DNA of 64,000 nucleotides, taken from the NCBI RefSeq assembly GCF_003797835.1, contig NZ_RKMF01000003.1:1-64000 (forward strand), written 5' to 3'. The position numbers and the translations under genes are program-made. Origin of the DNA: Kocuria soli (GTDB taxonomy: Bacteria; Actinomycetota; Actinomycetes; Actinomycetales; Micrococcaceae). Positions 34,155 through 51,648 of the stretch are shown here, one piece after another. The notes beneath the pieces are model-generated. The model did no database searches and was not told the DNA's origin. It saw nothing but the letters and a program-made list of their open reading frames with translations. Within the stretch, counting starts at the first letter, position 1. Each line of letters starts with the position of its first letter.

Positions 34155-34199
34155 ACGGTCCCCGCCACGCCCTGACTGTCAGGGTGTGGCGGGGACCGT
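34155..34199 (+). terminator. Strong terminator after rplI
   Basis: A 21-bp stem (ACGGTCCCCGCCACGCCCTGA with a near-perfect partner, one G-U pair) has a 3-base loop and is followed by GTGTTGTTTC. It closes the ribosomal operon and insulates the accessory region from it. Confidence 0.92.
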
Positions 34200-34419
34200 G
34201 TTGTTTCATGAGCTGAGATGCGTGCTCTTTACGGAGCTCGGTGCGAACGTGAACACCGCTGCTTGGTGGGGTCGTAAGGCGGCCATCCGAGGGCGTGGTA
34301 GCCCGGTGACCGCTAGGCAAGGTCCAGATCCCCGCCGAAACCCGCCAAGCGCACCCAGCCCGCATCTTGAAGGATTTCATGCAGGCCAAGTTCGTGCTGC
34401 GCCAGTGCTTCTCAAGAGC

Positions 34420-34605
34420 GCCGACCTGCGCCCCTCCGGTTCGGCGGATCTTGAGCACGTCTTCCAGGAACTCAACGCCCGCCCACGGAAACCGCTCGAC
34501 TGAGCCACCGCAGCCGAGCGACTGCGTGATCTACTGACGCTCACTGAACCACCACGTGTTGCGGGGATCCCTGGAGACTGCCGCTCAGGGTGTTTCGCGT
34601 CTTGA
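34420..34605 (+). pseudogene. IS30-family transposase relic (C-terminal end)
   Basis: The frame reads 'HVFQELNARPRKPLD', then TGA, then 'ATAAERLRDLL'. IS30 transposases end in 'LNxRPRKxLgWxTPaExL', so the stop sits exactly where the conserved Trp (TGG) should be. No catalytic core is recognisable upstream in any frame. This is a decayed insertion sequence at the left border of the accessory block. Confidence 0.65.
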
Positions 34606-34876: not shown

Positions 34877-35710
34877 GTGAGAAGCCCCATCCGACTGTGG
34901 ATGGGCCACGTATCGGATACGCCTGTTAGCGCTTTGGCTACATTGGACGATCAAGAACTTGCTCGAGGTGTTCGCCGCCTCAGCGGTGGAGCGAAATTTT
35001 TGCGATCGCATGCAGCCGTCCGCGCGGTGCTCGGGGCCTACCTGGGGGTAGCGCCGGCAGAACTGCGTTACGAAGGCTCCGACTGTCAGCACTGTCAGCA
35101 GCGTCACGGGCGCCCCGTTCTCTCACAACTGCGTCAGCAGTCGCGGTGCATGAGCATGAGTCATAGCGGAGATCTCTGGCTTCTGGCTGTTGCTGACGGG
35201 ATGCATCTGGGTGTGGATCTGGAGAGTGATCACAGGGACTTCGCCAAACACGCGACCATGAGTTTCACTCCCGAAGAACAGAGAGTCATCACGGGTTGGA
35301 CTGATTGTCCCGCGTCAGTTGATCAATCGGCCCTGGCTGGGTGGACAGCCAAGGAAGCCGCATCAAAGGCTTTGGGTGTGGGCCTCACAGTTGACTTCCG
35401 GACGCTGCACTGGACCCCGTTGCCGGGTGGGGGCTTCCGAGTGGACACGGCTGATGGTCGCCATGTGCGTGGCATCGGCGGGGCGTTCCCGCATCCCCGT
35501 GTACAGCCTGGATTCGCTGAAGCAGAGGGTTTCCGTTGGGCCGCAGCGTGGATGGCCGATTCAGCTCCCACGGAGCGACCCGTCCACGAGTCCTACTCCA
35601 TTCCTCAGGGACTACACCAGGGGGCCGGGATCCGGCCAAGGCCGAGGTGGTGCGCCCGCCCAGCTCATTGCAATGAGCTTTGGGCGGGGACCACCACAAT
35701 CGGCCCCTGA
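34877..35710 (+). CDS. Sfp-type 4'-phosphopantetheinyl transferase
   Basis: The 277-residue enzyme attaches phosphopantetheine from CoA to carrier-protein serines. Family motifs: 'LGVDLES' (Mg-binding Asp and Glu) and WTAKEAASKALGVG about 55 residues later (catalytic Glu and Lys). It is the presumed activator of the tandem ACPs encoded 0.1 kb downstream. The GTG at 34877 has GGAG six bases upstream. The last 50 residues (Pro/Arg/Cys rich) have no family resemblance and run through a large hairpin, so the true C-terminus of the fold is near residue 225. Confidence 0.85.
   Translation: MRSPIRLWMGHVSDTPVSALATLDDQELARGVRRLSGGAKFLRSHAAVRAVLGAYLGVAPAELRYEGSDCQHCQQRHGRPVLSQLRQQSRCMSMSHSGDLWLLAVADGMHLGVDLESDHRDFAKHATMSFTPEEQRVITGWTDCPASVDQSALAGWTAKEAASKALGVGLTVDFRTLHWTPLPGGGFRVDTADGRHVRGIGGAFPHPRVQPGFAEAEGFRWAAAWMADSAPTERPVHESYSIPQGLHQGAGIRPRPRWCARPAHCNELWAGTTTIGP
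35646..35695 (+). promoter_or_regulatory. Long hairpin at the 3' end of the PPTase gene
   Basis: GGTGGT, CCCGCCC and AGCTCATT on the left can pair with AATGAGCT, GGGCGGG and ACCACC on the right, with a GC loop and small bulges. No T-run follows. It lies about 115 bases before the first synthase gene and could lower read-through or stabilise the transcript. Confidence 0.45.
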
Positions 35711-35810
35711 CAGCTTGAGATCCGAAATCTACTTGCAAGTCCTCATTGCATTTGCAGAAATTATCCGCCGAACAGCTCACGCGCTGCTCAAGACTTCAGG
35801 AGAAAGAATA

Positions 35811-37625
35811 ATGTCCATTTCAACCATCGTGATGTTTCCCGGGCAGGGAGGCTATTCGCCACAGCACTGGAACACGATTCGCCGCAAGGCCGAGTTGGAG
35901 CCTGTCCTTCAGGAGATGAATGAAGTCACTTTGGTGGAGGCCGGCATCGATCTGATCAACATGCCTGAGGAAGACCGAGATGCCCAAGAACTGAGTCGCA
36001 CGGATCCAACGAGGCTGCAGATCTTAATCCATGCCTCCAACGTTCTGACGGGTTCATGGTTGAAGGTCAACCGACATGCAAACGGGGACGTGGCGGCCGG
36101 GCACAGTTTCGGGGAGATTGCGGCACTGTGGTTTGCGGGGGTGCTCAGCGCAGCTGACAGCATGCGTGTGGTGTGTGCGCGTAACGCTGCGATGGCACGG
36201 CATCAGCCAAATGGTGGACGAATGGTGGCGGTTGGCCTCCCGGAGGAGCGAGCGCACGCCTTGTTGACTTTGCTCGGCTGTGGTGACGCACTGGCAGTGG
36301 CTGGTCGGAATGCACAAGACCGCAGCGTCCTCTCCGGCAGTCCGGATGTTGTCGAACAGGCGCAGGCTCTCCTCAAAAGCATGGGAGTCGCTGCACTGCC
36401 GGTTCCTTCTCCCTGGGCGTTTCATCATCCCTCTCTGCAAGCTGCTGCCAACGACTTCAGGGACTCCATGGCGAAAATCACCTGGGGGGACTTGCACATC
36501 CCGGTGTATTCCCCAGTCCTGGGGCGCTACTACCGCGACGGCGAAGACTTCGGTTTGGCCCTGGCTCAGCACCTCACTGAGCCGTTTGTGTTCGACAAAG
36601 CAGTCGCACAGTTGACGGCCACCGGTCAGGGCAGGGTTTTTGACGCCGGTGCTGGAGGAGTCATCACTGCATTGTGTACGCGTTTGGTCGACGGAACTGG
36701 GTGGACTGTCTCGGGGGTGGACCTCACCGCGCAATCAAACTCGTCCCCGAATGGGACTCCTTTTCTGTTGGACAGCGACCAAGAGTGGTTGGTGCGGGTC
36801 TTGAGTGGCGATTTCTCGGTCGAGAAAGTTGCTGCACAACCGCTTCACGCCCTCTCTGAGTACTGGTCCAGGGAAGCCGACGGTGTTTTTAGTGCCCTAG
36901 CCAAGAACATGCGTGCCGTATTTGACGCCACTGACGACAACAGCGTTTCGGACATCGTCGACGATGCTGCGGAACAGCCCGGATTCGCGTCGTCTGTTGG
37001 GGGTGCTGGGTTGTCGGAAGATGAGGTGGTGCAGCGGTTGGCTGTGCTCTACGCGGAGGCTTTGGAGTATCCGGTCGAGGTGTTTACGGAGGATCTGGGT
37101 GTTCAGTTGGAGGCTGACCTGGGTGTGGATTCGGTGAAGCAGACGGATCTGTTGGCGCGGGTGGCTGAGGAGTTTGGGATGCCTGTTCCCGGGGAGGGGT
37201 TCTCGGTGGCCGGTTACCCGACTTTCGGGTCGGTGGTCGCACTGGTACGCGAGACAACCTCGGCATCCGGGGCGGTGCCGTCTGCACCACTGACTCACGC
37301 GTCGTCTGTTGGGGGTGCTGGGTTGTCGGAGGGTGAGGTGGTGCAGCGGTTGGCTGTGCTCTACGCGGAGGCTTTGGAGTATCCGGTGGAGGTGTTTACG
37401 GAGGATCTGGGTGTTCAGTTGGAGGCTGACCTGGGTGTGGATTCGGTGAAGCAGACGGATCTGTTGGCGCGGGTGGCTGAGGAGTTTGGGATGCCTGTTC
37501 CCGGGGAGGGGTTCTCGGTGGCCGGTTACCCGACTTTCGGGTCGGTGGTCGCACTGGTACGCGAGACAACATCGGCATCTCAAGGGACAGACACCCAACT
37601 TGCGAGTAAGGTGGTTTCCGCATGA
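35811..37625 (+). CDS. Polyketide/PUFA-type synthase subunit: AT-ACP-ACP
   Basis: The 604-residue protein loads extender units and carries the chain. The acyltransferase (about 1-320) opens with the MFPGQGG motif, has nucleophile Ser99 in GHSFGE and the active-site His205/206 in 'AFHHPS'. A linker leads to two acyl-carrier domains (about 395-485 and 499-589), each with phosphopantetheine site LGVDSVKQ (Ser441 and Ser545). Tandem ACPs are characteristic of PUFA synthases; separation of AT-ACPs from the KS protein is unusual. The ATG has AGGAGAAAG upstream. The gene overlaps the next by four bases. GxSxG context fits malonyl specificity, but this is inferred. Confidence 0.9.
   Translation: MSISTIVMFPGQGGYSPQHWNTIRRKAELEPVLQEMNEVTLVEAGIDLINMPEEDRDAQELSRTDPTRLQILIHASNVLTGSWLKVNRHANGDVAAGHSFGEIAALWFAGVLSAADSMRVVCARNAAMARHQPNGGRMVAVGLPEERAHALLTLLGCGDALAVAGRNAQDRSVLSGSPDVVEQAQALLKSMGVAALPVPSPWAFHHPSLQAAANDFRDSMAKITWGDLHIPVYSPVLGRYYRDGEDFGLALAQHLTEPFVFDKAVAQLTATGQGRVFDAGAGGVITALCTRLVDGTGWTVSGVDLTAQSNSSPNGTPFLLDSDQEWLVRVLSGDFSVEKVAAQPLHALSEYWSREADGVFSALAKNMRAVFDATDDNSVSDIVDDAAEQPGFASSVGGAGLSEDEVVQRLAVLYAEALEYPVEVFTEDLGVQLEADLGVDSVKQTDLLARVAEEFGMPVPGEGFSVAGYPTFGSVVALVRETTSASGAVPSAPLTHASSVGGAGLSEGEVVQRLAVLYAEALEYPVEVFTEDLGVQLEADLGVDSVKQTDLLARVAEEFGMPVPGEGFSVAGYPTFGSVVALVRETTSASQGTDTQLASKVVSA
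36987..37580 (+). repeat. Tandem near-identical ACP-coding repeat (2 x about 280 bp)
   Basis: Copies at 36987-37266 and 37299-37578 (period 312 bases) differ at four positions, giving one amino-acid change (Asp to Gly near the domain start). The identity includes synonymous sites, so the duplication is recent or kept uniform by gene conversion. Confidence 0.95.
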
Positions 37626-40600
37626 ACGCGACACAGGTATGGGAAGGCAAAGTCGTCCTGGTCACGGGTGGAGCGAAAGGCATAGGGGCAGTCATTGCCG
37701 AACGGTTCGCCTTCGCAGGGGCCAGGGTTGTGATCAACTGCTTTCATTCGTATGTCCAGGGCAAAGAGATGGCCGCCCGTTTGAACGCCGAGGGTTGTGA
37801 CGTTGCAGTTCGTCGCGGATCAGTAGCCAAACCGGAGCAGATCCAGGACCTTTTGGCGTGGATCGATGCTGAGTACGGTCGGTTGGATGTTCTGGTCAAC
37901 AACGCCGCATTTGGTGTGTTCAAGGACTCAGAGACCACCAGCCCAGAGGACCTGAGGCGTAGTTTTGAGGTCAACGTCACGGGGGCACTCTCTGCGGCAC
38001 AGGCCAGCCGTGCATTGCTCGCTGACTCACGTGGTTGCATCGTGAATCTCTCCTCGGTTGGCGCGGGCCACACCGTGGGCAACTACACCAGCGTGGGTAC
38101 CACCAAGGCCGGCGTCGAATCACTCACTCGATACTTGGCCGCAGAGTGGGCGCAGTACGGGATCCGGGTCAATTGCGCATCGGGTGGGCTGATCGCAGGT
38201 GGAGTTGCTGATGTATTCCCGGAGGCCGAATCCATGCAGCATGTGGTGTCACAGGCCACACCATGGGGAACGTTGGGCTCGGCAGCCGATATTGCCAACG
38301 TGGTTGAGTTCTTGGCCTCTCCTCAAGCCCGCTGGATCACGGGGCAGGTCCTACTTGCCGATGGGGGCATGTCTCTGGGGGCCGCAATGCTGACTCCCGC
38401 CGAGCAGTGGTCCCGGTCCGTGGAGGCCGCGCGTCAACAGGGCGGTCAAGGTGTCAACGCTGATGCAAAAGCAGACAACGACGGTGTTCGACTCACGCAC
38501 GACCAGGCTGACCTTTCACGTGAACACTCACAAGAACCGCCGAGCACCGCGAGGCCCGAACGCCAGATTCAGCCGCATGAGTCACCTCAAGGGGATCAAG
38601 CGGTCGACGAGAACGAGGTCATTGTCGCCGTTGGCATGGGGATGGTTGTGCCCGGGGCCAGTAATCCTGAGGAGTTCTGGAGGGTCCTGGAAGAAGGGCC
38701 GGAGCTCCTCAACCAGGAGCGTCCGGAGCGGATTCGTTCACATCACTTCTACGACGCCGATCAGTTGGCCGAGGACAAGACCTATCAGATCGCGTCGGGC
38801 TTTTCTGACGACTACCACCCCGACGTCGAACTCCAAGCCGAGTTGGGCGAGGACCGACGCGCCACGGACTACACCACTCAGTGGTTCCGGCACGCACTGC
38901 GGCAGGCCCTGGCTTCGGTCACCCTGCGGGGTAAGGTCAGTTGCGCGATCGGCTACACCGCAGACGGCAACCAACATTTGGAAGAAGCCCTCGTGGTCGA
39001 ATCTCTGGTCGAGGATCTCAACTCCGTCCTGCTCGAGCAGGACCAAGAGTCAGTGGATCCGCAGGCCATTCGAGACATGCTGGGCGAGTCGTACCCGCTC
39101 TATGCACGATCGGGACGGGCCCCTCTACCGTTTGAAGTAGGTCATGACGCCATCGCCGGACTGTTGGGCGAGAACCCCGAAGTCTCCATGGTGGACACTG
39201 CCTGCTCTTCCTCTCTGTACGCCTTGGACATCGCCGTCAAGGGCTTGTTGGACGGAACAAGGGACACTGCGGTGTGCGGTGGCACGTTCTCGGTGGGACC
39301 ACGCAACGCAGTGTTGTTCGCCAAGCTGCACGGGCTTTCCCCAAGTGGTCAACTGCGACCATTGGACGAACGTGCCGACGGCGTTCTGTTCGCTGACGGC
39401 GCTGCCACTGTCGTGCTCAAACGCCTCAAGGACGCACGGGCCGACGGGGACCCGATCCTGGGTTACATCAGTGGTGTCGGAATGTCCTCGGACGGTAAGG
39501 GCAAAGCTGTCTACGCGCCCAATGTCAAAGGACAGAAGTTGGCCATCAAGCGAGCCGGTGAACAACGCACAACGAGTCAGGCACCGGATTGGGTGGTAGC
39601 TCATGCAACGGGCACACCGGCAGGGGACCTTTGCGAGATCACGAGTGTGCGCGAGTCCATGACGTCGGACCGTAAAGTCTGGGTGACTTCCAACAAGTCC
39701 CTGGTGGGACACACCGGGTGGGCTGCAGGTGTGGTGTCCTTGATCCAAGTCCTGCTGAGCTTCCGTCATCAGGTCATACTTCCGCAGCACCGTTTCGACC
39801 GCGCCTTGCCTGCATACGAACTTGAGTCCTCGAGCTTGGCGGTGCCCATGGAGCCGGTTCCGTGGCCGGCAGGTTCCAGGGTTCGTACGGCAGCCGTGTC
39901 CGGATTCGGCTTCGGTGGAACCAACGCACATCTTGTGGTGCAAGACGTACCCGTGGTCTTTGGGCGGAAGACTCAACCTGACGACATCGTGCTGGCGGGG
40001 TGGGCGGCCGACGTTCCGGGATTGAAGACCCCCGAGGAGGTTGAATCCTGGATTTGTGGCAGCGGCGAGGTCAGTGCCACGTTCGGAGATTCATACGACA
40101 CGAGTGACCTGCGTGTTCGCATGCCACCCAAGGTCCTACGCACTTTGGACCGTGCCCAGCTGATGGCACTACGTTGCGCCAGTGATTTGCGGGATCAAAT
40201 CGGGGTGGAGACCTGGCAGGGCGTGCGTGAACGGATCGGTGTATTCATCGGCAGCATGGGGCCTACCCGTAATGCTTCGATGTACGCCCGGCGTTGCCAC
40301 CTGGACGCCACTCTCGACGCCCTGGCATCTCACGACGAACGTCTGGCGGACAGGATTCGTGAGCCTTTGACCGCGCGGGTTCGAAGCGGCGTCGTTGCGT
40401 CCAACGAGGACTCCTTTCCAGGAATCATGCCGAACATTGTATCGGCGCGAATTTCCAACGTATTCGACACCAACGGGCCCAACATGGTTCTGGACACCGG
40501 AGCGGGGTCCGCCTTTACTTCACTGGACGTGGCCGCTGACTATCTGCGTACGGGTGAAATCGATGTGGCCGTGGCCGGTGGCATCAACGGCAACTCAACG

Positions 40601-43546
40601 TCGACGTTCGAACGCATTGCACGGGAAACTCTGGGGCAGCAAGTGGAATTGCACGAAGGTGCTTTCCTGTTCACGCTCATGCGCCGCAGTACTGCGCAAG
40701 AGCTGGGCGCCCCGGTTCTGGCGACAGTGGGTGAGCTCAAGCACGAGAGCCCACAAGCGGCGCTGAAGCGAACTGACCGCGGTACCGGGCCGCATGCGTT
40801 CTTTGGTGGCGCCCACGGTGGCCTGGCAGTGCTGAGCACCCTGCTGAAGACAACTGGCCCGAACACCGTGGCGGTCTCCAACGGTCCCAGATATCCGGGC
40901 CTCACCTTGGATCTGAGCGTGGGTGAGACCGAACCCCAGGAGAAGACAGATGACGACGGGTCACAGTCGCCGGTGGTCTCTCGTCACGACCGGATCTGGA
41001 CCCCCGCACCGTTGAACAATGCCGGGAGAGCATCAGGTGATTCCTCGCGAATCGCTTCGGTCGTGCTCGCAGTAGACCGGGGAGCAGATCGGGAGGTCGA
41101 ACAGCCGGACACCCCGGTGATATGTGTCGCCGATCTCCTCGAACGCACATCCGAGGTCGCGGGTCTCTCGTCGGAACGGGCGCTGGAAGCACTTGAGGGA
41201 CTTGACCTGGAACATGTTCGATGCCTGGTGGACCTCAAAGAGCTGAACCCGGAAGGCGACCCCACCCCGGAACAGACACAGTTACTGGAGGCTGTGCACG
41301 ATGTGCTGTTCCTCGCAGCAAAACGGCAGGCCGAAACCGTTGCCCGCGGCGGTACCTTTGCCATCGCGTTGCTGGGATCGTGGGACGGTAAGATCGCCCA
41401 CCCAATGACGGGCCTGTTCACGGGCTTCGCCAAGAGCTTGGCCCTCGAGGGCAGGGGTCGGGGCCTAGAGGTGCGTGCCGTCTTGACGCAGGAGCGTGAC
41501 CCCAACAAGGCCATGGCGTTGTTGGAGACGGAATTGGACTACCCACCGGGCGGTCTCCCAACTGCAGCGTGGGCCGACGGTCAACGGTTTCGGGAATCCG
41601 CCGTCGAAACCACTCGTCCAGAGGGCAGGGAAGAGCCTCTTACTGAATCCTCCGTTGTGCTGGCCACAGCGGGCGGCAAGGGAATCACCGCGCGCGTGGT
41701 GGTGGCAGTGGCCGAAAAGTACCGGTGCCACATGTATCTGATGGGTTCAACAGACCTGGAGCAGTGCCGCAAGGCACTGGATTCCTACGGTGGCATCCAG
41801 GCGCTGGCGGACAAACCGACGTTCATCCGCGCGGCGCGCGACCGGCTCCCTGATGCCAAGGTGGCTCAGATCAACGCCGAGTACGAGCGGTTGCAGGGGG
41901 CAGCGGAAATCCTGGAGACCCTAGCCCAGATCGAAGCGGCCGCAGGGGCGGGCAAGGCTCACTACCTGCGGGCAGACGTAACGGATCGGACACAGGTCAA
42001 CGCCGCGGTGAACTACGTGCGAGAAAGCCATGACACCGTGGACCTGGTGATTCACGGGGCCGGAATCAACCGAGCCTCCACAGTGATCACCAAGTCCTTG
42101 CCGCAGTTCAAGGCTGTCCGTGGGGTCAAGGTCGGCGGGTACTTCAATCTGCGTTCAGCGGTGCACGCCAGTTTCGGGGCCTTTCCGCGGATGTGGTGCA
42201 GTTTTTCGTCCCTGATCGGGCTTACCGGCCAGCAAGGTGAGACTGACTACGCCTCGGCCAACGATGCCCTCGCTACTCTGGCCCAGGCGCACCGGGCTGA
42301 GGGTCACGACGAATTCGCCATCGGATGGACCCTGTGGAAGGACGCAGGCATGGCTGCCAGCAGTGTCCATCAGTCGTTCTTCTCGGGGGTCATGGGTGAC
42401 GTTCTGTCACTGATGAGTACGTCGGAGGGGACGCATAAGTTCCTTGAAGAACTTGAGGCCGGTACTCGAACCGGTGCCGTGGTGCACATCGGTGACGTCG
42501 AAAAGCGCTCCATCGAGGAGGCCGCCCCTGGGTTCTTCAGCGAATCGACCGCCCAGAGCACCGGCTCGCCCGGTGACTCTGACCAAGGGCTGTTCTACGT
42601 GGATCGAGCGGAGTGGATCAGCCGCAACGAAGTGATTTGTCATCGTCTGATAGACCAACGAGATGCTTTCCTGAGCGGCCATGCCGTTGGTGGCATCGGC
42701 ACGCTGCCCGGTTGCTTCGTCCTTGAGCTGATGGCGGAGGCCTCTCGCGTCCTGAGGCCTGAGCTGGTGATGACGGGGGCCAGGGATGTGCGATTCCAAA
42801 GCTTCCTGCGTACAGATGGTCCAGCGACTCGTACCCCGCTACAACTCCGGGCCAAGGTGTTGACCTCCACCAAGGAGCGCACCCTGGTGGAAGTGCGGAT
42901 CAGCGTGCCTTTGGTGACTCCGTCCGGGAGAGATTTGAACCGGGACAAGGTGTTCTTCACCGGTCAGGCAGTTCTGGAGGGGTACTATCACCCGGCGCCC
43001 GTCCACTCAACGTGGCCGGAGGCCACGGAACACCCCGTGCTGGACCCGTACCACGGGGACGGAGCTCCGGTGGCGCTCACCCGGGAGTTTGTGACCACCG
43101 CCAACACGAGATTGCACCCCTTGGGCAAGAGAGCCACGTACCGGGGTGCGGTAGGCGCTAACGGTACATATGACCGGTTCTTGAAACCGGTACTCATGAT
43201 GGACGGGCTGATCCGTCTGGCCGTTCTGGAGGAGTTCGACCAACCGGTACTTCCGGTGGCCGCCCCTACCCGCATCGGTCGTGTGGACTTCTATGCACAG
43301 GACAACGACGTCGAGTTGTCCTCTGAGCCTGGAGCAGTCGAACTCTACGCTACTCCGCGCGGCGTGGGATTGGACAGCTCTGCCGTGTACACCGCAGTGG
43401 GTCCCAATGGCCGGGTGCTGTTGACAGTGTCCGGGTTGGAAGGCGTGGTGGTAGGGCATGTGGAAGCTCGCACCGGGAGCGCAGTTGCGGACCCCGCCCA
43501 CCTGATCACCCCACGCCGTGAGCAGACGGAAAGGATCGCGCTGTGA
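37622..43546 (+). CDS. Iterative polyketide/PUFA-type synthase: ER(FabL-like)-KS-CLF-KR-DH
   Basis: The 1974-residue protein has these domains in order. (1) SDR, 1-260, with TGGAKGIG, NNAAFGV and Tyr155-x6-Lys162 in NYTSVGTTKA, closely resembling the enoyl-ACP reductase FabL. (2) A disordered linker. (3) Ketosynthase, about 335-785, with Cys528 (DTACSSS), His661 (HATGT) and His697 (VGHTGW). (4) A chain-length-factor-like KS, about 790-1125, with Ala961 replacing the Cys (DTGAGS). (5) A ketoreductase with structural half, about 1140-1640, with GGKGIT and Tyr1543 (DYASAND), and the helical insertion typical of PUFA-synthase KRs. (6) A hotdog dehydratase, about 1660-1960, with His1687 in the HxxxGxxxxP motif and an Asp in 'MMDGLIRL'. 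It has no AT, ACP or thioesterase, so it must work with the AT-ACP-ACP protein. It overlaps both neighbours by four bases. Confidence 0.9.
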   Translation: MNATQVWEGKVVLVTGGAKGIGAVIAERFAFAGARVVINCFHSYVQGKEMAARLNAEGCDVAVRRGSVAKPEQIQDLLAWIDAEYGRLDVLVNNAAFGVFKDSETTSPEDLRRSFEVNVTGALSAAQASRALLADSRGCIVNLSSVGAGHTVGNYTSVGTTKAGVESLTRYLAAEWAQYGIRVNCASGGLIAGGVADVFPEAESMQHVVSQATPWGTLGSAADIANVVEFLASPQARWITGQVLLADGGMSLGAAMLTPAEQWSRSVEAARQQGGQGVNADAKADNDGVRLTHDQADLSREHSQEPPSTARPERQIQPHESPQGDQAVDENEVIVAVGMGMVVPGASNPEEFWRVLEEGPELLNQERPERIRSHHFYDADQLAEDKTYQIASGFSDDYHPDVELQAELGEDRRATDYTTQWFRHALRQALASVTLRGKVSCAIGYTADGNQHLEEALVVESLVEDLNSVLLEQDQESVDPQAIRDMLGESYPLYARSGRAPLPFEVGHDAIAGLLGENPEVSMVDTACSSSLYALDIAVKGLLDGTRDTAVCGGTFSVGPRNAVLFAKLHGLSPSGQLRPLDERADGVLFADGAATVVLKRLKDARADGDPILGYISGVGMSSDGKGKAVYAPNVKGQKLAIKRAGEQRTTSQAPDWVVAHATGTPAGDLCEITSVRESMTSDRKVWVTSNKSLVGHTGWAAGVVSLIQVLLSFRHQVILPQHRFDRALPAYELESSSLAVPMEPVPWPAGSRVRTAAVSGFGFGGTNAHLVVQDVPVVFGRKTQPDDIVLAGWAADVPGLKTPEEVESWICGSGEVSATFGDSYDTSDLRVRMPPKVLRTLDRAQLMALRCASDLRDQIGVETWQGVRERIGVFIGSMGPTRNASMYARRCHLDATLDALASHDERLADRIREPLTARVRSGVVASNEDSFPGIMPNIVSARISNVFDTNGPNMVLDTGAGSAFTSLDVAADYLRTGEIDVAVAGGINGNSTSTFERIARETLGQQVELHEGAFLFTLMRRSTAQELGAPVLATVGELKHESPQAALKRTDRGTGPHAFFGGAHGGLAVLSTLLKTTGPNTVAVSNGPRYPGLTLDLSVGETEPQEKTDDDGSQSPVVSRHDRIWTPAPLNNAGRASGDSSRIASVVLAVDRGADREVEQPDTPVICVADLLERTSEVAGLSSERALEALEGLDLEHVRCLVDLKELNPEGDPTPEQTQLLEAVHDVLFLAAKRQAETVARGGTFAIALLGSWDGKIAHPMTGLFTGFAKSLALEGRGRGLEVRAVLTQERDPNKAMALLETELDYPPGGLPTAAWADGQRFRESAVETTRPEGREEPLTESSVVLATAGGKGITARVVVAVAEKYRCHMYLMGSTDLEQCRKALDSYGGIQALADKPTFIRAARDRLPDAKVAQINAEYERLQGAAEILETLAQIEAAAGAGKAHYLRADVTDRTQVNAAVNYVRESHDTVDLVIHGAGINRASTVITKSLPQFKAVRGVKVGGYFNLRSAVHASFGAFPRMWCSFSSLIGLTGQQGETDYASANDALATLAQAHRAEGHDEFAIGWTLWKDAGMAASSVHQSFFSGVMGDVLSLMSTSEGTHKFLEELEAGTRTGAVVHIGDVEKRSIEEAAPGFFSESTAQSTGSPGDSDQGLFYVDRAEWISRNEVICHRLIDQRDAFLSGHAVGGIGTLPGCFVLELMAEASRVLRPELVMTGARDVRFQSFLRTDGPATRTPLQLRAKVLTSTKERTLVEVRISVPLVTPSGRDLNRDKVFFTGQAVLEGYYHPAPVHSTWPEATEHPVLDPYHGDGAPVALTREFVTTANTRLHPLGKRATYRGAVGANGTYDRFLKPVLMMDGLIRLAVLEEFDQPVLPVAAPTRIGRVDFYAQDNDVELSSEPGAVELYATPRGVGLDSSAVYTAVGPNGRVLLTVSGLEGVVVGHVEARTGSAVADPAHLITPRREQTERIAL

Positions 43547-44922
43547 GGGCCGCCCAGCCATTGAGTTCCATGACGCCACACCCACCGGGTCCCCGGGGGC
43601 TTCCATACCTGGGGAGTCTTCCTGCGTATCGACGGGATGCCGCTCAGTTCTTGACCCGCACGCGCTATGAATACGGGCCAGTGGCCAAGCTACGCATGGG
43701 TCCGTACACGTTCACCCTTGCCACCGGTTCGGCAGCGGTTCAGCACGTGCTGATCCGCAACAAGGAGAACTACTGTCGAGGTCAGCTCTACAAGCAGTTC
43801 GAACTGGTCATGGGCCGCGGGTTGCTCACCATGGACGACGACGAATGGCGTCCTCACCGCAGGGTCATGCAACCCGCGTTCCTCCGCAGTGCATTGGCGG
43901 GCTATTTTCCGTCGGTCCGTGAGCGCACTGAGCAACTGCTGATGCGTTGGGAGCGCCATGCTTTGGACGGGACCCCGGTCGATCTGGTGGCCGAGTGTCT
44001 CCGACTGGCGTCTGCAGTGATTATGGATGTCCTCTTCGGATTCGACATAGACGATCGTGCGGCCCGGATCAAGGAAGTAGTGGATCAGAGCATCGACGTC
44101 ATGTTCCCGCACGGCACCTTCCAGGAAATGCTTCCACTGTGGGTCCCCACGCCCCGCAATCGCCGGGTCAAACGTAACCGTGAGCAGCTGCTGGAGCTGG
44201 CCGACGACGTTGCGCGGGCTCCCGCCGGCGCTGGAGAGATGACCTTGGATTCGTTGTTGCGTGCGGCTGCACGACGTGGAGAGGAGGGATGGTCACGGGA
44301 AGAGCTACGCGATGAGATCTTGACCATTTATCTGGCCGGGCATGAGACGACAGCCACCGCGATGGCCTGGTCATTGATCTCTGTGGCCAATGAACCCGCT
44401 GTGCGCGAGCGTCTCAGTGAGGAAGTGGACCGGGTGGTGGGTCAGCGTTCCGTTGAATACGCCGACCTGGAATCTCTGCCGTATACCAAGGCCGTGATCG
44501 ACGAGACGCTACGGCTCTACCCACCCATTTGGCTATTCCCCCGCGATGCGATCAACGACGATGTCATGGACGGGTACCGTGTGGACGCCAAGACCAGTGT
44601 CCTGCTGAGTCCCTTGCTCTCCCACCGGGATCCGGAAGTCTGGAGCAACCCGGAAGCATTCGACCCCGAACGGTTCTTGGCGCCTTCCGGGCGTCCACCG
44701 CAGGGATCGTACATCCCCTTTGGGTTGGGAGCCCGGCAGTGCGTGGGGAATGCGGTGGCCCTGGTGGAACTGCAAGCCGTGTTGGCCATGATCACTCAGC
44801 GCTACCGTCTGGAGATCCTGCCGAGTTCCATGCTGCGCTACGGGGACACGTTGATCTCTCTGCGTCCCATGGGCGATGTGTTCGCCCGTGTCCACGTGCG
44901 CGATGGAAATGGTGTCGCATGA
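43543..44922 (+). CDS. Cytochrome P450
   Basis: The 459-residue haem monooxygenase has I-helix AGHETTATAMAW, the K-helix ExxR motif ETLRLYPP, the meander 'FDPERF', and haem ligand Cys400 in FGLGARQCVG. The 'LYPPIWLFPRDA' stretch resembles P450s that act on fatty acyl or other lipophilic chains. No fused reductase, so it needs external redox partners; none are encoded in the cluster. GTG start overlapping the synthase stop (GTGA) and TGA overlapping the next ATG show co-translation. Likely role: hydroxylation or oxidation of the synthase product. Confidence 0.93.
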   Translation: MRAAQPLSSMTPHPPGPRGLPYLGSLPAYRRDAAQFLTRTRYEYGPVAKLRMGPYTFTLATGSAAVQHVLIRNKENYCRGQLYKQFELVMGRGLLTMDDDEWRPHRRVMQPAFLRSALAGYFPSVRERTEQLLMRWERHALDGTPVDLVAECLRLASAVIMDVLFGFDIDDRAARIKEVVDQSIDVMFPHGTFQEMLPLWVPTPRNRRVKRNREQLLELADDVARAPAGAGEMTLDSLLRAAARRGEEGWSREELRDEILTIYLAGHETTATAMAWSLISVANEPAVRERLSEEVDRVVGQRSVEYADLESLPYTKAVIDETLRLYPPIWLFPRDAINDDVMDGYRVDAKTSVLLSPLLSHRDPEVWSNPEAFDPERFLAPSGRPPQGSYIPFGLGARQCVGNAVALVELQAVLAMITQRYRLEILPSSMLRYGDTLISLRPMGDVFARVHVRDGNGVA

Positions 44923-47333
44923 GCGGCCCGATCCTCCGACATGTCATGGAACTGGTGTCGGCTCCGCGTTACCCGGGTGTCAGACCGCTCGAACCGGAGT
45001 CCACGGTCTGGGTACTCAACGCCTCCCAAGCTGTCGTGGACCGGGCTGCATTCACTTTTCGGGGGCACGGCCACAACGTTGTTTGGATTCCGCCCAGCGC
45101 AGCGTCTTCCGTGATCGACGAATACGTGCGGCGTCGGACCCCTGACGTCGTCGTCGATTTCGGTGCGGGAGAACACGCCACCTCAACCGCTGACTGGCGT
45201 GAACGTTTCCACCACACCTTGGAGGTCTTGCGTGCGGTGTACCCGTGTTGGGCACCCTGCACCGATTACGGGCGTCTGCGATACACCGCCCTGACGTGGC
45301 AGCGCGAGAATGAGTCTCCTGCCGACCTCAATGGCTTGTGGAGTGGGCTGGCCAAGACTCTGCCGCGGGAGTTTCCAGCGGTGATTCCACAGGTGGTTGA
45401 ATTACCGACTCCGGATGGAAACGACGACGCCGTTCTGACGCCCGTGATCGACGCGATGGAAAACTACCCGTGGGTGGAGCTGGTGATGCCTCGGGCGGCG
45501 CCCGCGCTGACACCGCTGCCGGTGCCACGCGAGGTCAATGACTGTGCTACATCAAGGATTGGGTCGGATGACACCGTCTTGATGACGGGCGGAGCACGCG
45601 GCATCGGGTGGCGTTTGGCGGTGGAACTGGCGCGCCGCACGGGTTGCCACGTTCTGGTTTCCGGGCGGGACGACGTCGAGATCCTCCGTAGCCAACCTTG
45701 GGCCCGTGCAAGCGAAGTTCAATTCGAGCAGCTTCGTGTCGAGGCCTTCACGGAACGCTCCGCAGACCAGACCCTGCCTCAGATTCGACGGCGTCTGACC
45801 AAGCAGACGCAAGTTCGAGAGATCCTGGCCAATCTGGATGCGGCGCGTGACGAGGGGCTGAATATCGAGTATGTGGTCTGTGACGTCACAGACGAACAAT
45901 CCGTGCGTCGCGCCGTGGAGCAGGCAGGAGCGAAGCTGAGCGCGGTGTTGCACAACGCCGGGCTGGACATGCCTTCGCGTCTGCCTGACAAGACCCAGGC
46001 GGACGTGGAGACCGTGGTTGCCGTCAAGCTTGACGGGTTTCGTAACCTCAAAGCTGCCCTCGCGGGGCATTCGCTCAAGGTCATGTGCCTCACGGGTTCG
46101 TTGACCGGTCGTTACGGCGGCATGGTCGGGCAGTTCGATTACGCGGCGGCCAATGATTCTCTGGCCTATGCCGCTCGTGCTGCGGGGGAGGACTATCCCG
46201 TCCTTTGCGTGGCGTGGCCTACGTGGAACGGTGTGGGTCTGATCACGAACCTCAAGGCAGCCTCCGCCTACATGCTGCCCATCGAGGCCGAGGACGGCGT
46301 GACCGCCTGGATCCGAGAGATCCAAGGAGGACCGTCCGGAGAGAGCGCCTTCATGGGCGAATTTGCCACTGTTTCTGCTCAACACCTGGAATCCGTACCC
46401 GTGCCCGTCGGCTGGACCGGAGCCAGACGGATGCTGTCGCGTCGGTACTGGTTGGGACGGGTCGTCGTGATTGAGCCCCTGGTCGCGATCACCAGCATCC
46501 ACGTGTTCAACCCTGATACTGCGCCATACGCGGTATCAGCCCAGCTGGGTGGTCGTGAGGCCATGCCGATTACCTTGATTCTCGAACTGTTGTTACAAGC
46601 CCGGGACGGATTCGCCATGGTTATCCCGGGGGCGACTCACCTGGAGGACGTCCGGATCCAGCTGGCCGCAGTGGTCAATCCCCCGTCTTCGCCGGACGGT
46701 CCTGTTCAGACGGCCCAGCTGCGTCGCACGGCCCGGATCCGCTCGTCCGGAGTCACCGTGGCTCTGGAGGTCACGCTTGATCGGGTGGACCAGGAGGATT
46801 CAATACCACTTGCCAGCGCCACAGTGATTGTGCGGCAGGATCCCCGCGAGCACGAAACCACACCTCAGTCGGGTCGACGATGGCGGGTCACGGTTGCCGG
46901 TGGTCCCGGGAACGCTGGTCCGGGGGTCTACCAATGGAGCGACGTTCCTGCCACGGTGCCGGCTGATGCGGGCGGACACGAAAGGGTGTTCGATCTCGTG
47001 GAGTTCTGGTCGCCGGCGCTTGGGTGGACCCAAGCAGTACCACCGTTCACCTTGCTTCCCACGACGGCAGTCGAAGCCGCTATGCAAAGGGTGATCGCCT
47101 CCCCCGCCGGAAAGGACCCAGGGGTGCTCAGAATCGGGGCAGTACTGCTGTCAGCACCCGTGGGTGACTCGGGGATACGACCGGCACCGGGCACCGCGCC
47201 TAGTTGCTCAGTCACCATCCATGAAGTTTCGGGCGAGCACCGGTATGAACTCCGCGAAATTCGCACAACCGATCACTTCGAATCCCAAGATGACATATCT
47301 GAAAGGCAGCTGCCCGAACATGCACATCTATGA
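44919..47333 (+). CDS. PUFA-type ketoreductase fused to a degenerate dehydratase-like domain
   Basis: The 804-residue protein has an SDR structural half (about 1-200) and a catalytic ketoreductase with MTGGARGIG (about 218-226) and active Tyr408 in DYAAANDS. The KR carries the same charged helical insertion as the KR in the large synthase. From about 510 a hotdog/DH-like domain follows. At the DH motif HxxxGxxxxP the residue in the His position is Ala541 (AQLGGREAMP; Gly545 and Pro550 kept), and no clear second catalytic Asp is seen. The KR looks active; the DH fold is probably structural or a substrate-holding domain. It lies between the P450 and the flavoenzyme with overlapping genes on both sides. 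Confidence 0.8.
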   Translation: MSGPILRHVMELVSAPRYPGVRPLEPESTVWVLNASQAVVDRAAFTFRGHGHNVVWIPPSAASSVIDEYVRRRTPDVVVDFGAGEHATSTADWRERFHHTLEVLRAVYPCWAPCTDYGRLRYTALTWQRENESPADLNGLWSGLAKTLPREFPAVIPQVVELPTPDGNDDAVLTPVIDAMENYPWVELVMPRAAPALTPLPVPREVNDCATSRIGSDDTVLMTGGARGIGWRLAVELARRTGCHVLVSGRDDVEILRSQPWARASEVQFEQLRVEAFTERSADQTLPQIRRRLTKQTQVREILANLDAARDEGLNIEYVVCDVTDEQSVRRAVEQAGAKLSAVLHNAGLDMPSRLPDKTQADVETVVAVKLDGFRNLKAALAGHSLKVMCLTGSLTGRYGGMVGQFDYAAANDSLAYAARAAGEDYPVLCVAWPTWNGVGLITNLKAASAYMLPIEAEDGVTAWIREIQGGPSGESAFMGEFATVSAQHLESVPVPVGWTGARRMLSRRYWLGRVVVIEPLVAITSIHVFNPDTAPYAVSAQLGGREAMPITLILELLLQARDGFAMVIPGATHLEDVRIQLAAVVNPPSSPDGPVQTAQLRRTARIRSSGVTVALEVTLDRVDQEDSIPLASATVIVRQDPREHETTPQSGRRWRVTVAGGPGNAGPGVYQWSDVPATVPADAGGHERVFDLVEFWSPALGWTQAVPPFTLLPTTAVEAAMQRVIASPAGKDPGVLRIGAVLLSAPVGDSGIRPAPGTAPSCSVTIHEVSGEHRYELREIRTTDHFESQDDISERQLPEHAHL

Positions 47334-48753
47334 TGCGATCATCGTGGGAGCCCGCGTAGCCGGTTGTGCGACCGGAATGCTGTTGGCCAAAGCAGGGTTC
47401 GACATTCTTGTGGTGGACCGGGACGCGCTACCTAGCGACAAGCCACACTCGACCCACCTGATCCACCCACCCGGAATCCGCCGCCTTCGTGATTGGGGGC
47501 TACTCCAGGACATCGAGAACAGCGGGTGCCCACCGATCCACGAATACGGGCTGGCCGTGGGAACCATGGATCTCATGGCCCCTCTGCCACCCGACGGCGA
47601 TGTGAGCACTGCCTTCGCACCGCGCCGACGCGTCCTGGACGCGATTCTGCTTGACGCGGCCGTCGCCGCAGGAGCCGAAGTCAGGCCAGAAACCTTGGCC
47701 ACGGGCCTGGTGTACGAGCAGGAGCGCGTGGTGGGAGTGCGACTACGTAGCGGAGGGCGGGAGGTGGTTGAACGTGCCCGGCTGGTGATTGGTGCCGACG
47801 GCGTCAACTCTCGCGTCGGTACATGGGCAGGGGCGCAGAAGTACCTGGAAAGGCCCAGGCGTCTCACGAGTATCTGGTCCTACTGGACAGGTACGTCAGT
47901 CACGGAAGTTCCCACGTGGCGCGATGACCACAACTACGCATTTGCCTGGCCAACCAACGACGGTGCGGTCCTGGCTGGGGTCACGTGGCGGAGCGAGGAC
48001 TTCAAGCGCCTAAAGATCAAAGACAAGGAGGCGGCACTGTTCGGGGTCATGGATCGCTTCGACCCGCAGCTTGCTGCCCAGATGCGAGTAGGTGAGCGGA
48101 TCGAGGAATGGCGGACCGGTTCCGTTCCCAACTACTTCCGTGAGTCTTTCGGGGCTGGGTGGGCCCTGGTGGGCGATGCGGGGTACTGTCGCGACCCATC
48201 AACGGCGGCAGGAATCACGGATGCGCTGAGGAGTGCCGAGTACCTTGCGGAAGAGATCATCTGCGCATGGGAAGGAAAGGTATCGGAAGAGCAGGCTCTG
48301 GCGCGATATGAATATCGCCGAAACGTGAGACAGAGGCCGATTTATGAGTACACGACTGATTTTGCTCGACTGGATCCTTACCCGAGTGACGTGTTGGAGA
48401 TCATGACCAAGGCCAGCTCCGTACCACGGTTTGCTCAGGGCTTGACGGGCTTGTTCGCCCAAACTCAAGATCCCTTGGAGTTCTTCTCGCCCCATAACAT
48501 GAGCCAGATTCTACGTGAGACCGGTGCGCCGGAATCTTTCAGAATTGGGGCGCTCAAAGCGATTTCTTCACCAAATGTTTACAGATTGCCGGGTGTTCCT
48601 GCCGTGATGCGAGCTATGCTTGCTTCTCGACTTGGCGACATGGGTGATTACCTCCGTGAGGCCGAGCGCGCCAGGAATCGGTGGCGCGGCATGACCGGAT
48701 GGCAGAGCAACCCCGAATTATTGGAGGAAAAATGGTCTACTCCCGCATCGTGA
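47320..48753 (+). CDS. FAD-dependent oxidoreductase/monooxygenase (PHBH-like)
   Basis: The 477-residue flavoprotein has an N-terminal FAD fold 'YDAIIVGARVAGCATGMLL' (GxGxxG written GARVAG), the DG motif 'GADGVNSRVG', and the GD motif 'ALVGDAGYCRDPSTAAG'. These mark the group A hydroxylase/halogenase/geranylgeranyl-reductase superfamily. No halogenase WxWxIP motif is visible, so hydroxylation or reduction is more likely than halogenation. The ATG at 47320 lies inside the end of the previous gene (14-base overlap); an ATG 30 bases earlier lacks a ribosome-binding site. Likely tailoring enzyme for the polyketide/acyl product. Confidence 0.82.
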   Translation: MHIYDAIIVGARVAGCATGMLLAKAGFDILVVDRDALPSDKPHSTHLIHPPGIRRLRDWGLLQDIENSGCPPIHEYGLAVGTMDLMAPLPPDGDVSTAFAPRRRVLDAILLDAAVAAGAEVRPETLATGLVYEQERVVGVRLRSGGREVVERARLVIGADGVNSRVGTWAGAQKYLERPRRLTSIWSYWTGTSVTEVPTWRDDHNYAFAWPTNDGAVLAGVTWRSEDFKRLKIKDKEAALFGVMDRFDPQLAAQMRVGERIEEWRTGSVPNYFRESFGAGWALVGDAGYCRDPSTAAGITDALRSAEYLAEEIICAWEGKVSEEQALARYEYRRNVRQRPIYEYTTDFARLDPYPSDVLEIMTKASSVPRFAQGLTGLFAQTQDPLEFFSPHNMSQILRETGAPESFRIGALKAISSPNVYRLPGVPAVMRAMLASRLGDMGDYLREAERARNRWRGMTGWQSNPELLEEKWSTPAS

Positions 48754-49217
48754 CCAAGAAAGTCAAAGAGACTTTCGACGCCATCAATTCCGGCAACTAT
48801 CAGGTCATGCTTGATGGCTTGGCTGATGATTTCGTATACCATTTTCATGGTCGGCATGCTTTGGGCGGTCACCGCAACACCCTGAAGTCCATGGATGCCT
48901 GGTGGCAGCGCGTTGGTCGCCTGTTACCTGGTGCGAATTTTGAGATCCGAGAAGTCCTTGTTTCTGGTGGTCCGTGGCGTACGCGGATCGCCGTCAATTC
49001 AAAGATCAGAGGAGACTTGCCCGACGGCACGCTCTATGAGAACACCGTCCTCCAGTTGATGACCCTCAGGTGGGGCAAGGTTGCAGAGGTGGAGACCTTG
49101 GAGGACCTCCAGGTCCTGGAGCGAGCTCTGAGTGTGGTCGCGAAACACGGTCAGCAGGAGGCATTGGCCGAACCGATCGAAGACCCTGGCCCAGGCTCGA
49201 GTGCGCCCCAGTACTGA
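48732..49217 (+). CDS. SnoaL-like (NTF2-fold) protein
   Basis: The 161-residue product has the NTF2/SnoaL layout: N-terminal helices 'VKETFDAINSGNYQVMLDGL', 'ADDFVYHFHGRHALGGHR', and a curved sheet ending 'WGKVAEVETLEDLQ'. SnoaL-like proteins catalyse aldol cyclisations, isomerisations or bind small molecules in polyketide pathways; His residues in the pocket region are consistent with catalysis, but the reaction cannot be named. The ATG has GGAGGAAAA directly upstream and overlaps the flavoenzyme gene by 22 bases. Confidence 0.75.
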   Translation: MVYSRIVTKKVKETFDAINSGNYQVMLDGLADDFVYHFHGRHALGGHRNTLKSMDAWWQRVGRLLPGANFEIREVLVSGGPWRTRIAVNSKIRGDLPDGTLYENTVLQLMTLRWGKVAEVETLEDLQVLERALSVVAKHGQQEALAEPIEDPGPGSSAPQY

Positions 49218-49236
49218 TCGACCAGGAGCTGTCCAC

Positions 49237-51648
49237 GTGTATGCACGCTTTGTTTACCGTTACAGTGCAGCGGTCCTTGTGCTCAGCGCCTTGGTGCTGG
49301 CGTTGTTCGCCGTATTCGGATTTCGTGTCTTCGGTAATTTGATTCCAGGTGGATTCGCTGATCCCATGTCCGAGTCGGCCGTGGCCCAACAGATCGTCCA
49401 CGAAGATCTGGGCGGGGAAGCAAACCTGGTGGTACTGGTCGGTGAACCGGCAGACGTCCCACCAGGGGAGGAGGGCCGGCCTTCGAACCAGACGGGTGCC
49501 GACGTTGCAGAGCAACTACGTCAAGACTCACGCGTGGAGTCCGTGCAGTCTTTCACCGATCCGGGAACCGGGTCCTCCCTGGTCTCTGACAACGGTGAGT
49601 GGGGATTGATCGCTGCCCACGTGACCGGCAGCGACCAGGAGCAGATCGACACTGCCAAGGAACTCTCCGATCGGTTGGTGGGTGAGCGCGAGGACGGCAC
49701 GCAAGTGCTGTTGGGCGGAACGACGCCGATCACCCAGGAGATTAACGAGCAGGTCCTCGTCGACCTCAAGTACGCAGAGCTGATTGCGGTTCCCCTGACC
49801 ATGATCCTGTTGCTGATCGTCTTCGGAAGTGTGGTCTCGGCGGTACTACCCCTGGCCGTGGGGGGTTTCGGCGTGCTGGGAGCGTTCTTCGCAACGTGGC
49901 TGATCACACTGGTGGCGGATGTCTCCATTTACTCGATCAATCTGATAACAGCCCTGGGGCTTGGACTGGCCATCGACTATTCCTTGCTCATGGTGAGCCG
50001 CTTTCGTGAAGAACTCGACGTTCGCGGACAGGGTCGCCACGCCGCCCGACGAAGTGAGCTTGCCCAAGAGGCCCTGAGCAGGACTCTGGCCACCGCTGGA
50101 CGAACAGTTCTGTTCACCAGTCTGGCCGTGGCCAGCGCCCTGTGCGCCTTGCTCGTCTTCCCGCCGCCCTTTTTGCGGTCATTCGGGTACGGCGGGATTG
50201 CCGTCGTTGTGGTTGCGGCTTTGGGTGCTCTGGTGGTCCTTCCAGCCCTCTTGGCAGAACTCGGTCCCCGGATTGACAGTCTTTCGGTGCGTAGCAAGAA
50301 GTCCGCCGTACCTTCGTTGTCTGCCCCGTCCCAGTTCTGGGGTCATGTCGCCAGGGTGGTTTACAAACGCCCCTTGCTCTCCGCAATCCCCGTTTTGGTT
50401 GCCATCGGTGTGATGGCCGCTCCCTTGCTCCACGTACAGTTCGCCACTCCTGATGATCGGATCCTCACCGGAGACCAAGTCAGCCGGGAAGCTGGGGACA
50501 TCCTGCGCGATCATTTCCCGTCCAACAGCTCCGCTTCCCCCGTTGGGATCGTCAGCTCAGAGGTCTCCTCTGAGCAGTTGGATGACTACGCCCGACGCGC
50601 GTCTCTGGTGGAGGGCGTGGATCAGGTCATGGCCGCGACGGGGATCTACCGGGACGGGCGCCACGTGGCTTCACCGCCCGAGTCCATGCTCCACGAGCAA
50701 CTCCAGGCGGATGAGTACTACGCCATCCGGGTAGGAGGACCCGCGGATTTTCTGGGCGAAGAGGCGATTGACACTGTGAAGGAGCTCAGGAATTTGTCCC
50801 CGCCGGAGGGGACGAACAGGGTCGAATACACCGGGGGCACGGCACGATTCATCGATGATCGACGAGCCGTGACGGATCATCTCCTGACGGCGCTGGCGCT
50901 GATCGTGGCCACGACCTTCGTCCTGGTGTTCCTGTTCACTGGATCGGTGCTGATGCCCCTCAAGGCATTGGTCATGAACGTGATCTCCTTGGGCGCAGTG
51001 CTGGGCGTTGTGACCTGGATCTTCCAGGACGGAGCCTTCGCCGAACTGCTGGGATTCACGCCCAGACCGTTGGACATGGCCATGCCCGTCCTGTTGTTCT
51101 GTATCGCCTTCGGGCTGTCCATGGACTACGAACTGTTCCTGATCGGGCGCATGAAGGAGGTGTGGGACAGGACCAAGGACAACCGTCAGGCCGTGGTGGA
51201 GGGCCTTGCCCACACCGGACGAATCACCAGCCTGGCTGCGGTAGTGCTCTCCGTGACCTTCGCAGCTTTTGGTACCAGTCAGGTCACTTTCCTTCAGCTG
51301 TTCGGTATCGGTACGGCCTTTGCAATCCTTTTGGACGCCACGCTGGTACGCGGTGTCCTGGTGCCGTCGTTCATGCGTATTGCCGGTAATGCGAACTGGT
51401 GGTCTCCGGGTCCGCTACGTAAGCTGCATGGTCTCGTGGGACTCAGTGAGGTCTCCGACGGTCCCATGCTCAACGACATCAACCCTGCGGACTCGGAGCG
51501 CGAGGAGGATCTGCGGGCCCGACGGCGGAGGGAATCCGCGGCAGCGATCAGTGCCCTGACTCCGGCGATCGTCTCCAGCGGGAAGGGAGCTCACCGTCGT
51601 GGCCGAGATTCGGCCACAACGTCGAGCGATCCAACTGAGACGGTTTGA
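49237..51648 (+). CDS. MMPL/RND-family transporter
   Basis: The 803-residue membrane protein has two repeated halves, each with one helix, a periplasmic domain and a five-helix bundle. The family's charged helix motifs are present twice: GLAIDYSLLMVSRFREEL and GLSMDYELFLIGRMKEVW, whose Asp-Tyr pair carries the proton relay. MMPL proteins export lipids and lipid-like polyketides, so it is the likely exporter of the cluster product. The GTG at 49237 has AGGAG eight bases upstream; earlier in-frame starts overlap the SnoaL-like gene. The C-terminal 60 residues are hydrophilic. It ends the operon. Confidence 0.92.
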   Translation: MYARFVYRYSAAVLVLSALVLALFAVFGFRVFGNLIPGGFADPMSESAVAQQIVHEDLGGEANLVVLVGEPADVPPGEEGRPSNQTGADVAEQLRQDSRVESVQSFTDPGTGSSLVSDNGEWGLIAAHVTGSDQEQIDTAKELSDRLVGEREDGTQVLLGGTTPITQEINEQVLVDLKYAELIAVPLTMILLLIVFGSVVSAVLPLAVGGFGVLGAFFATWLITLVADVSIYSINLITALGLGLAIDYSLLMVSRFREELDVRGQGRHAARRSELAQEALSRTLATAGRTVLFTSLAVASALCALLVFPPPFLRSFGYGGIAVVVVAALGALVVLPALLAELGPRIDSLSVRSKKSAVPSLSAPSQFWGHVARVVYKRPLLSAIPVLVAIGVMAAPLLHVQFATPDDRILTGDQVSREAGDILRDHFPSNSSASPVGIVSSEVSSEQLDDYARRASLVEGVDQVMAATGIYRDGRHVASPPESMLHEQLQADEYYAIRVGGPADFLGEEAIDTVKELRNLSPPEGTNRVEYTGGTARFIDDRRAVTDHLLTALALIVATTFVLVFLFTGSVLMPLKALVMNVISLGAVLGVVTWIFQDGAFAELLGFTPRPLDMAMPVLLFCIAFGLSMDYELFLIGRMKEVWDRTKDNRQAVVEGLAHTGRITSLAAVVLSVTFAAFGTSQVTFLQLFGIGTAFAILLDATLVRGVLVPSFMRIAGNANWWSPGPLRKLHGLVGLSEVSDGPMLNDINPADSEREEDLRARRRRESAAAISALTPAIVSSGKGAHRRGRDSATTSSDPTETV

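Follow-up and report, generated by a model that had tools for sequence, protein, structure and literature searches.

Polyunsaturated fatty acid (PUFA) synthases of the PfaA-D type and the so-called secondary lipid synthases combine a ketosynthase–chain-length factor (KS-CLF) pair with tandem acyl carrier proteins (ACPs), a ketoreductase (KR) and a dehydratase (DH), in an iterative system served by its own 4'-phosphopantetheinyl transferase (PPTase), according to PMC3098273 and PMC13291983. The former names 20 types of secondary-lipid synthase, and the word 'Burkholderia' is absent from its text; the latter covers PUFA-like hybrids with non-ribosomal peptide synthetases and polyketide synthases (PKSs), and 'P450' does not occur in it. 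The same set of components is encoded by an operon at positions 34877..51648 of the window analyzed here, namely the first 64,000 nucleotides of Kocuria soli contig NZ_RKMF01000003.1. In this operon the synthase is accompanied by a cytochrome P450, a flavoenzyme, a SnoaL-fold protein and an MMPL transporter. No characterized or described cluster of this layout, and no product for this synthase family, was found in the open-access literature searched (subscription journals, MIBiG and preprints lay outside the search). On balance, it appears somewhat probable that the locus constitutes a self-contained pathway for an oxidized long-chain polyketide lipid, either a polyene or a partly reduced polyene.

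The set and order of eight genes claimed in the original prediction were borne out by the open reading frames (ORFs) and by Pfam. All eight genes lie on the forward strand with open reading frames, the last stop being at 51648 (Table 1), and Pfam recognized in turn a PPTase, an acyltransferase (AT), two ACP stretches, a short-chain dehydrogenase/reductase (SDR), KS, KR, P450, a further KR, the flavin adenine dinucleotide (FAD) enzyme, SnoaL and MMPL. The genes had been described as nearly all overlapping by 4-22 bases. This is true of five of the seven junctions (4, 4, 4, 14 and 22 nt, in gene order), whereas the PPTase and AT-ACP-ACP genes are separated by 100 nt and the SnoaL and MMPL genes by 19 nt. 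The latter figure depends on an MMPL start chosen for its Shine-Dalgarno-like AGGAG; the alternative GTG at 49201 lacks such a site and would produce a 17-nt overlap. As predicted, Pfam detected no thioesterase among the eight genes (the search covered these genes and not the remainder of the genome), nor did it detect a glycosyltransferase or acyl-ligase among them. A promoter scan returned 2 candidates, versus 3.0 expected.

Table 1. Genes and domains of the K. soli operon (window positions; start codons for genes only)
Feature	Position	Strand	Start codon	Evidence
PPTase, would activate the ACPs	34877..35710	+	GTG	Pfam ACPS, 47.1 bits
AT-ACP-ACP protein	35811..37625	+	ATG	Pfam Acyl_transf_1 and two PP-binding stretches; ATG with AGGAG
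Two near-identical ACP repeats, 312-bp spacing	36990..37601 (outer end approximate)	+		DNA tandem repeat
ER-KS-CLF-KR-DH synthase, 1974 aa (ER, enoyl reductase)	37622..43546	+	ATG	Pfam, aligned catalytic residues
FabL-type SDR enoyl reductase domain, Tyr155-X6-Lys162	37622..38407	+		Best PDB match 3oic FabL, 145.3 bits
Ketosynthase, Cys528-His661-His697	38609..39976	+		Pfam, alignment, PDB search, KS tree
Chain-length factor, Ala at Cys position	39977..40951	+		Best PDB match 6riw KS-CLF, 44.8 bits; alignment
Ketoreductase, Lys1503, Tyr1543, Asn1547	41159..42541	+		Pfam KR, alignment
Dehydratase, predicted PKS DH fold, His1687 and Asp1861	42569..43543	+		Predicted model
Cytochrome P450	43543..44922	+	GTG	Pfam p450, 308.8 bits
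Second KR with C-terminal pseudo-DH	44919..47333	+	ATG	Alignment
FAD-dependent monooxygenase, geranylgeranyl-reductase/halogenase-like superfamily	47320..48753	+	ATG	Pfam, NCBIfam, PDB search, alignment
SnoaL-fold protein, candidate cyclase (epoxide-opening or other)	48732..49217	+	ATG	Pfam, PDB search, alignment
MMPL/RND (resistance-nodulation-division) exporter	49237..51648	+	GTG	Pfam MMPL, 241.8 bits; homologue in related G909 cluster

The core of the system is the synthase, in which the KS-CLF pair, the KR and the DH of the original prediction were all recovered. The CLF is a second, Cys-less KS-like domain, whose best match derives from the PUFA synthase of Moritella marina. The DH domain has no Pfam match, and its predicted model resembles PKS dehydratases; a PfaC-type DH was not among the structural matches listed for the model, an absence that proves nothing. 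The predicted ER is also present, but it is an SDR of the FabL type. Its Tyr155-X6-Lys162 aligns with 3oic, and both residues are kept in all 15 aligned synthases, while its score against the FabL equivalog NF005975 (206.6 bits) is under the cut-off of 328. A genome-wide search for PfaD yielded no match above the cut-off (best score 35.4 bits, versus 449.25). Since the checked catalytic residues are conserved across phyla, the domain architecture is not a product of chance.

The tandem ACPs claimed for the AT protein were confirmed by both Pfam and the DNA, where the two copies differ at 4 positions within the first 278 bases; such near identity points to a recent duplication or gene conversion. 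The AT carries an AFH motif, which we take to be of the malonyl type. The nearest NCBIfam model of the PPTase is HetI, with a score under the cut-off. In Streptomyces bicolor NRRL B-5348 (L033:9700-10000) a shortened second ACP repeat runs directly into the ER domain. This apparent fusion of AT-ACP and synthase was set aside, as it probably reflects a repeat collapsed in the assembly, or else a deletion.

The synthase family recurs in Burkholderiales and Actinomycetota and is not a one-off. Among the best 80 of 489 confirmed loci retained from a scan of the species-genome collection, the synthase was matched over most of its length in at least 16 (eleven from Burkholderia/Paraburkholderia, four from Streptomyces and one from Saccharopolyspora), and the full synthase was found in at least ten Burkholderia records and one of Paraburkholderia. 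The plasmid collection contained the Paraburkholderia ginsengisoli locus again, together with a more distant Streptomyces locus, and viral contigs contained no relative. Closer to home, a full-length match among 198 related genomes occurred only in the window, the next best being a single-domain match of 165 bits. The DH domain by itself was matched in 1 of 396 genomes from the order and, at phylum level, in 2 of 396, the window being counted both times. The second of these phylum matches led to a Streptomyces-like genus, where 32 of the 392 genomes sampled matched the DH at E up to 1e-12 and 19 of those 32 at E below 1e-40; the surroundings were fetched for 7 of the 32.

Gene content was compared over 24 distinct loci (Burkholderiales, 11; Actinomycetota, 13), with a single entry for the two P. 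ginsengisoli records. An AT-ACP gene adjoins the synthase in every locus, and a P450 is encoded nearby in 23, the exception (L046) stopping at a contig edge. The KR-pseudoDH protein occurs in 22 loci and is missing from L029 and L045, whose P450s are merely 33-34% identical. In all 11 aligned KR-pseudoDH proteins, the window's among them, the KR Ser and Tyr are kept and the DH His is missing. P450 and KR-pseudoDH share one open frame in all 11 Burkholderiales loci, which suggests that the two cooperate. A homologue of the FAD enzyme is present in 11 of the 13 actinobacterial loci and a different flavin monooxygenase in each of the 11 Burkholderiales loci, while a window-type SnoaL was detected in 5 of the 24.

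Among the closest loci are the Streptomyces-like G909 and G1134, which share with the window the AT-ACP protein, the synthase (47% identity), P450 (53-55%; 53% in G909), KR-pseudoDH (45%), FAD enzyme (51%) and SnoaL (55-58%; 58% in G909). G909, unlike G1134, also possesses an MMPL gene (41%), and thus repeats the window's set from AT-ACP to exporter. Both differ from the window in an additional SDR and in placing FAD and SnoaL genes (in G909, MMPL as well) on the opposite strand. The loci of the P. ginsengisoli NZ_CP066077 type share the AT-ACP protein, the ER-KS-CLF-KR-DH synthase (about 43% identity), P450, KR-pseudoDH and PPTase; no homologue of the FAD, SnoaL or MMPL protein was found in the stretch. 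The Burkholderiales loci further depart from the window in the single P450-KR-pseudoDH protein, the other flavin monooxygenase and a Lol/MacB-like ATP-binding cassette (ABC) exporter.

In the proposed pathway, the PPTase would arm both ACPs and the AT would load malonyl, after which the KS-CLF would condense iteratively, with the CLF limiting chain length. The KR and DH would yield trans-enoyl units, some of which would be saturated by the built-in FabL-type ER, and such selective use of the ER may leave a polyene or partly reduced polyene chain. Homology backs the assembly steps, from malonyl loading through elongation, ketoreduction and dehydration to an optional enoyl reduction; the polyene character of the chain and the tailoring and export steps are inferred. 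The P450 and the KR-pseudoDH protein probably act as partners, perhaps while the chain is bound to an ACP. An alkene may then be epoxidized or hydroxylated by the FAD monooxygenase and, by analogy, the SnoaL-fold protein could open the epoxide, giving a cyclic ether or a diol. Release would proceed by transfer or lactonization, without a dedicated thioesterase, and the MMPL protein would export the product.

The original prediction that a chain is made, oxidized and exported agrees with an iterative synthase accompanied by oxidative and export genes. The exporter itself says little about the product, since MMPL occurs in only one of the 24 loci, others carrying a major facilitator superfamily (MFS) pump (five Streptomyces-type loci) or the Lol/MacB-like ABC exporter of the Burkholderiales. 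This scarcity counts against the proposed pathway, as do several other points. The product, its chain length and its degree of unsaturation are not readable from the sequence. Within the PDB, the KS is nearer to a Brevibacillus PKS (7zma, 240 bits) than to the PUFA KS-CLF 6riw (144 bits). The best PDB matches of the FAD enzyme are halogenases, and the SnoaL protein matches the putative polyketide cyclase IdmH weakly (E 9.7e-5), with no epoxide hydrolase among its three PDB matches. As neither the FAD enzyme nor the window-type SnoaL has a homologue in any of the 11 Burkholderiales loci, cyclization is not part of the core. A flavin-dependent halogenase was considered separately and rejected: WxWxIP is the halogenase motif, and the FAD enzyme lacks it, the aligned stretch reading FAWPTNDG.

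A further point, that an ER acting in every cycle would give a saturated chain, leads to the alternative that survives best. Here, a saturated or mono-unsaturated long-chain secondary lipid would be assembled with the ER employed in nearly every cycle, hydroxylated by the P450 and FAD enzyme, and, as an envelope lipid, moved by the MMPL protein. The invariant Tyr and Lys of the ER would suit such a role. MMPL proteins, moreover, include lipid exporters such as MmpL3 (to which the window protein has an NCBIfam match under the cut-off), and the locus of Streptomyces sp. S.PB5 contains a carboxyltransferase and a wax-ester-synthase-like acyltransferase, in addition to an IclR regulator and an MFS pump. 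A SnoaL-fold enzyme, however, would have little to do on a saturated chain, and the eight genes include neither a glycosyltransferase nor an acyl-ligase. Overall, we regard a secondary lipid of this kind as rather unlikely.

The genomic surroundings bear on whether the pathway is still functional. The island lies between the rpsF-ssb-rplI region (S6 and SSB by Pfam, rplI by eye) and a divergent FMN-reductase/luciferase-like pair, beyond which are a MarR regulator and dnaB. The G+C content of the operon is 0.613, versus 0.640-0.658 in 60 equal-length sliding stretches of the joined window flanks. In two genus mates, the rplI match gives way to a short unmatched stretch, 138 bases in G003 and 251 in G024, after which the sequence matches the island's far side. 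By L9 and the luciferase-like protein the closest relative is G017, which keeps, at the equivalent position and with the same orientation, a SnoaL gene of 69% identity. At the same site G020 retains an MMPL relic, without most of the middle and apparently the start, whose C-terminal part is 64% identical. This pattern fits an early entry into the genus with several later losses, and fresh acquisition by the window species alone was rejected because of the two relics. Their existence, the loss in genus mates and the lower G+C (0.613 versus 0.650) might suggest that the operon is itself what remains of an acquired cluster, decaying and no longer functional. With eight open frames and intact catalytic residues wherever these were checked, this is improbable.

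Several smaller features were seen around the site. A strong hairpin of 20 pairs with a T-rich tail behind it (34155-34199), just past rplI, is a likely terminator bounding the island, and a degenerate stretch at 34320-34560 resembles, by eye and without tool support, the C-terminus of an IS30-type transposase. The ORF lying upstream of the island gave nothing informative with Pfam. On the reverse strand, an ORF of 1274 aa with low-complexity composition (29462-33286) runs antisense across the rpsF-ssb region and was judged spurious, because S6 and SSB are encoded on the other strand. The SnoaL relic of G017 (L194:2234-2848) stands alone, its neighbors being an ArsA/ParA-like ATPase and a CstA-like ORF (named by eye). 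In G024, a SnoaL gene 58% identical occurs on another contig (L206:9761-10228), with no other operon genes in the 20 kb fetched.

Affiliation of the synthase was examined in a KS tree of 34 rows, with PfaA (2), a PfaBC protein (1), enediyne PKSs (2), type I PKSs (6, not further classified) and type II/FabF (3) as references. The tree has several long branches, its references do not include heterocyst-glycolipid, aryl-polyene or ladderane KSs, and it omits L014, both L193 proteins, the L192 CLF and seven family members (L036, L037, L042, L043, L046, G830 and G1247). The window KS groups with those of G909 and G1134 (support 100/99), inside a 20-row clade (99/98) of 18 family rows, the window included, plus an Azospirillum and a Streptomyces BHT-5-2 protein. 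This clade is separate from all of the reference rows. The family label is not strictly a single clade, as St_NBC01237 joins BHT_PKS with weak support (89/74). That divergent synthase, of Streptomyces sp. NBC_01237 (L029:12001-21828), is followed by a KASIII-like protein, a P450 and a Rieske-type protein (KASIII and Rieske by eye). On plasmid p4 of Azospirillum argentinense (L030:10477-20364) a split version comprises a KS protein, further SDR/KR proteins and one that ends in a FabL-type ER; it adjoins two fatty acid desaturases and has an RND pump upstream.

The description 'PUFA-synthase-like' therefore stands as an analogy and not as membership. A true PUFA synthase, of the eicosapentaenoic/docosahexaenoic acid type, would share the KS-CLF didomain, the KR and DH and the tandem ACPs, though these sit here in the separate AT protein. 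Matches to TIGR02813 (PfaA) are partial and far under the cut-off of 1010.1 bits (synthase 305.4 over the whole protein, AT-ACP-ACP 150.2, KR-pseudoDH 94.7), versus 2529.7 for Persicobacter PfaA, and they say little, since matches below the cut-off were also found in 11 of 14 control genomes. With no PfaD above cut-off, a FabL-type ER, P450, FAD and SnoaL tailoring genes, and a KS outside the PfaA and PfaC-like rows (three Pfa rows only, on long branches), PUFA synthase membership was rejected as highly improbable. An iterative PKS cluster of enediyne or aromatic type, in which SnoaL would serve as an aldol cyclase (as its IdmH match might suggest), was disfavored just as strongly, because the KS stands apart from the two enediyne rows (SgcE, from the C-1027 plasmid, and another), the accessory genes next to the enediyne PKS in L190 (DUF1702 proteins, thioesterase) are missing from the eight, and KR, DH and ER argue for reduction.

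A bolder interpretation, which is tentative and in our view doubtful, would treat the FabL-ER-KS-CLF-KR-DH synthase with its detached AT-ACP array as a distinct class of iterative megasynthase. In this class the chain would be oxidized on its ACP by a P450 that is coupled to a further KR, itself bearing a vestigial DH, a FAD/SnoaL pair would then fold the polyene into cyclic ethers, and spread between Actinomycetota and Burkholderiales would have been horizontal, with lineage-specific exporters. In any event, the locus points to a natural-product family that is still largely unexplored, with related loci of no known product in other soil bacteria. It raises two questions that can be put to the test: how programming of an SDR enoyl reductase is achieved when it is fused to an iterative KS-CLF system, and, from the P450-KR fusion, whether oxidation happens on the carrier protein.

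For the tailoring genes, the closest parallels are the flavin epoxidase and cyclase pairs XimD/XimE, Lsd18/Lsd19 and AurC/AurD of the xiamenmycin, lasalocid and aurovertin pathways (PMC8827043). There too a flavin monooxygenase is found beside a small cyclase or epoxide hydrolase, an analogy of gene pairing only, none of these proteins being among the PDB matches of the window's FAD and SnoaL proteins. As predicted, the layout differs both from PfaABCD and from the enediyne PKSs used for comparison. Unlike PfaA-D, the window system has an N-terminal FabL-type SDR in place of PfaD, unites ER-KS-CLF-KR-DH on one polypeptide with a separate AT-ACP-ACP protein, is partnered by P450, KR-pseudoDH, FAD, SnoaL and MMPL proteins, and has its KS in another clade of the tested tree. 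Enediyne PKSs such as SgcE of the C-1027 pathway also have an iterative KS, a KR and a DH; they possess no CLF and carry AT, ACP and PPTase as integral domains, and they differ from the K. soli system in the clade of their KS and in their partner genes.

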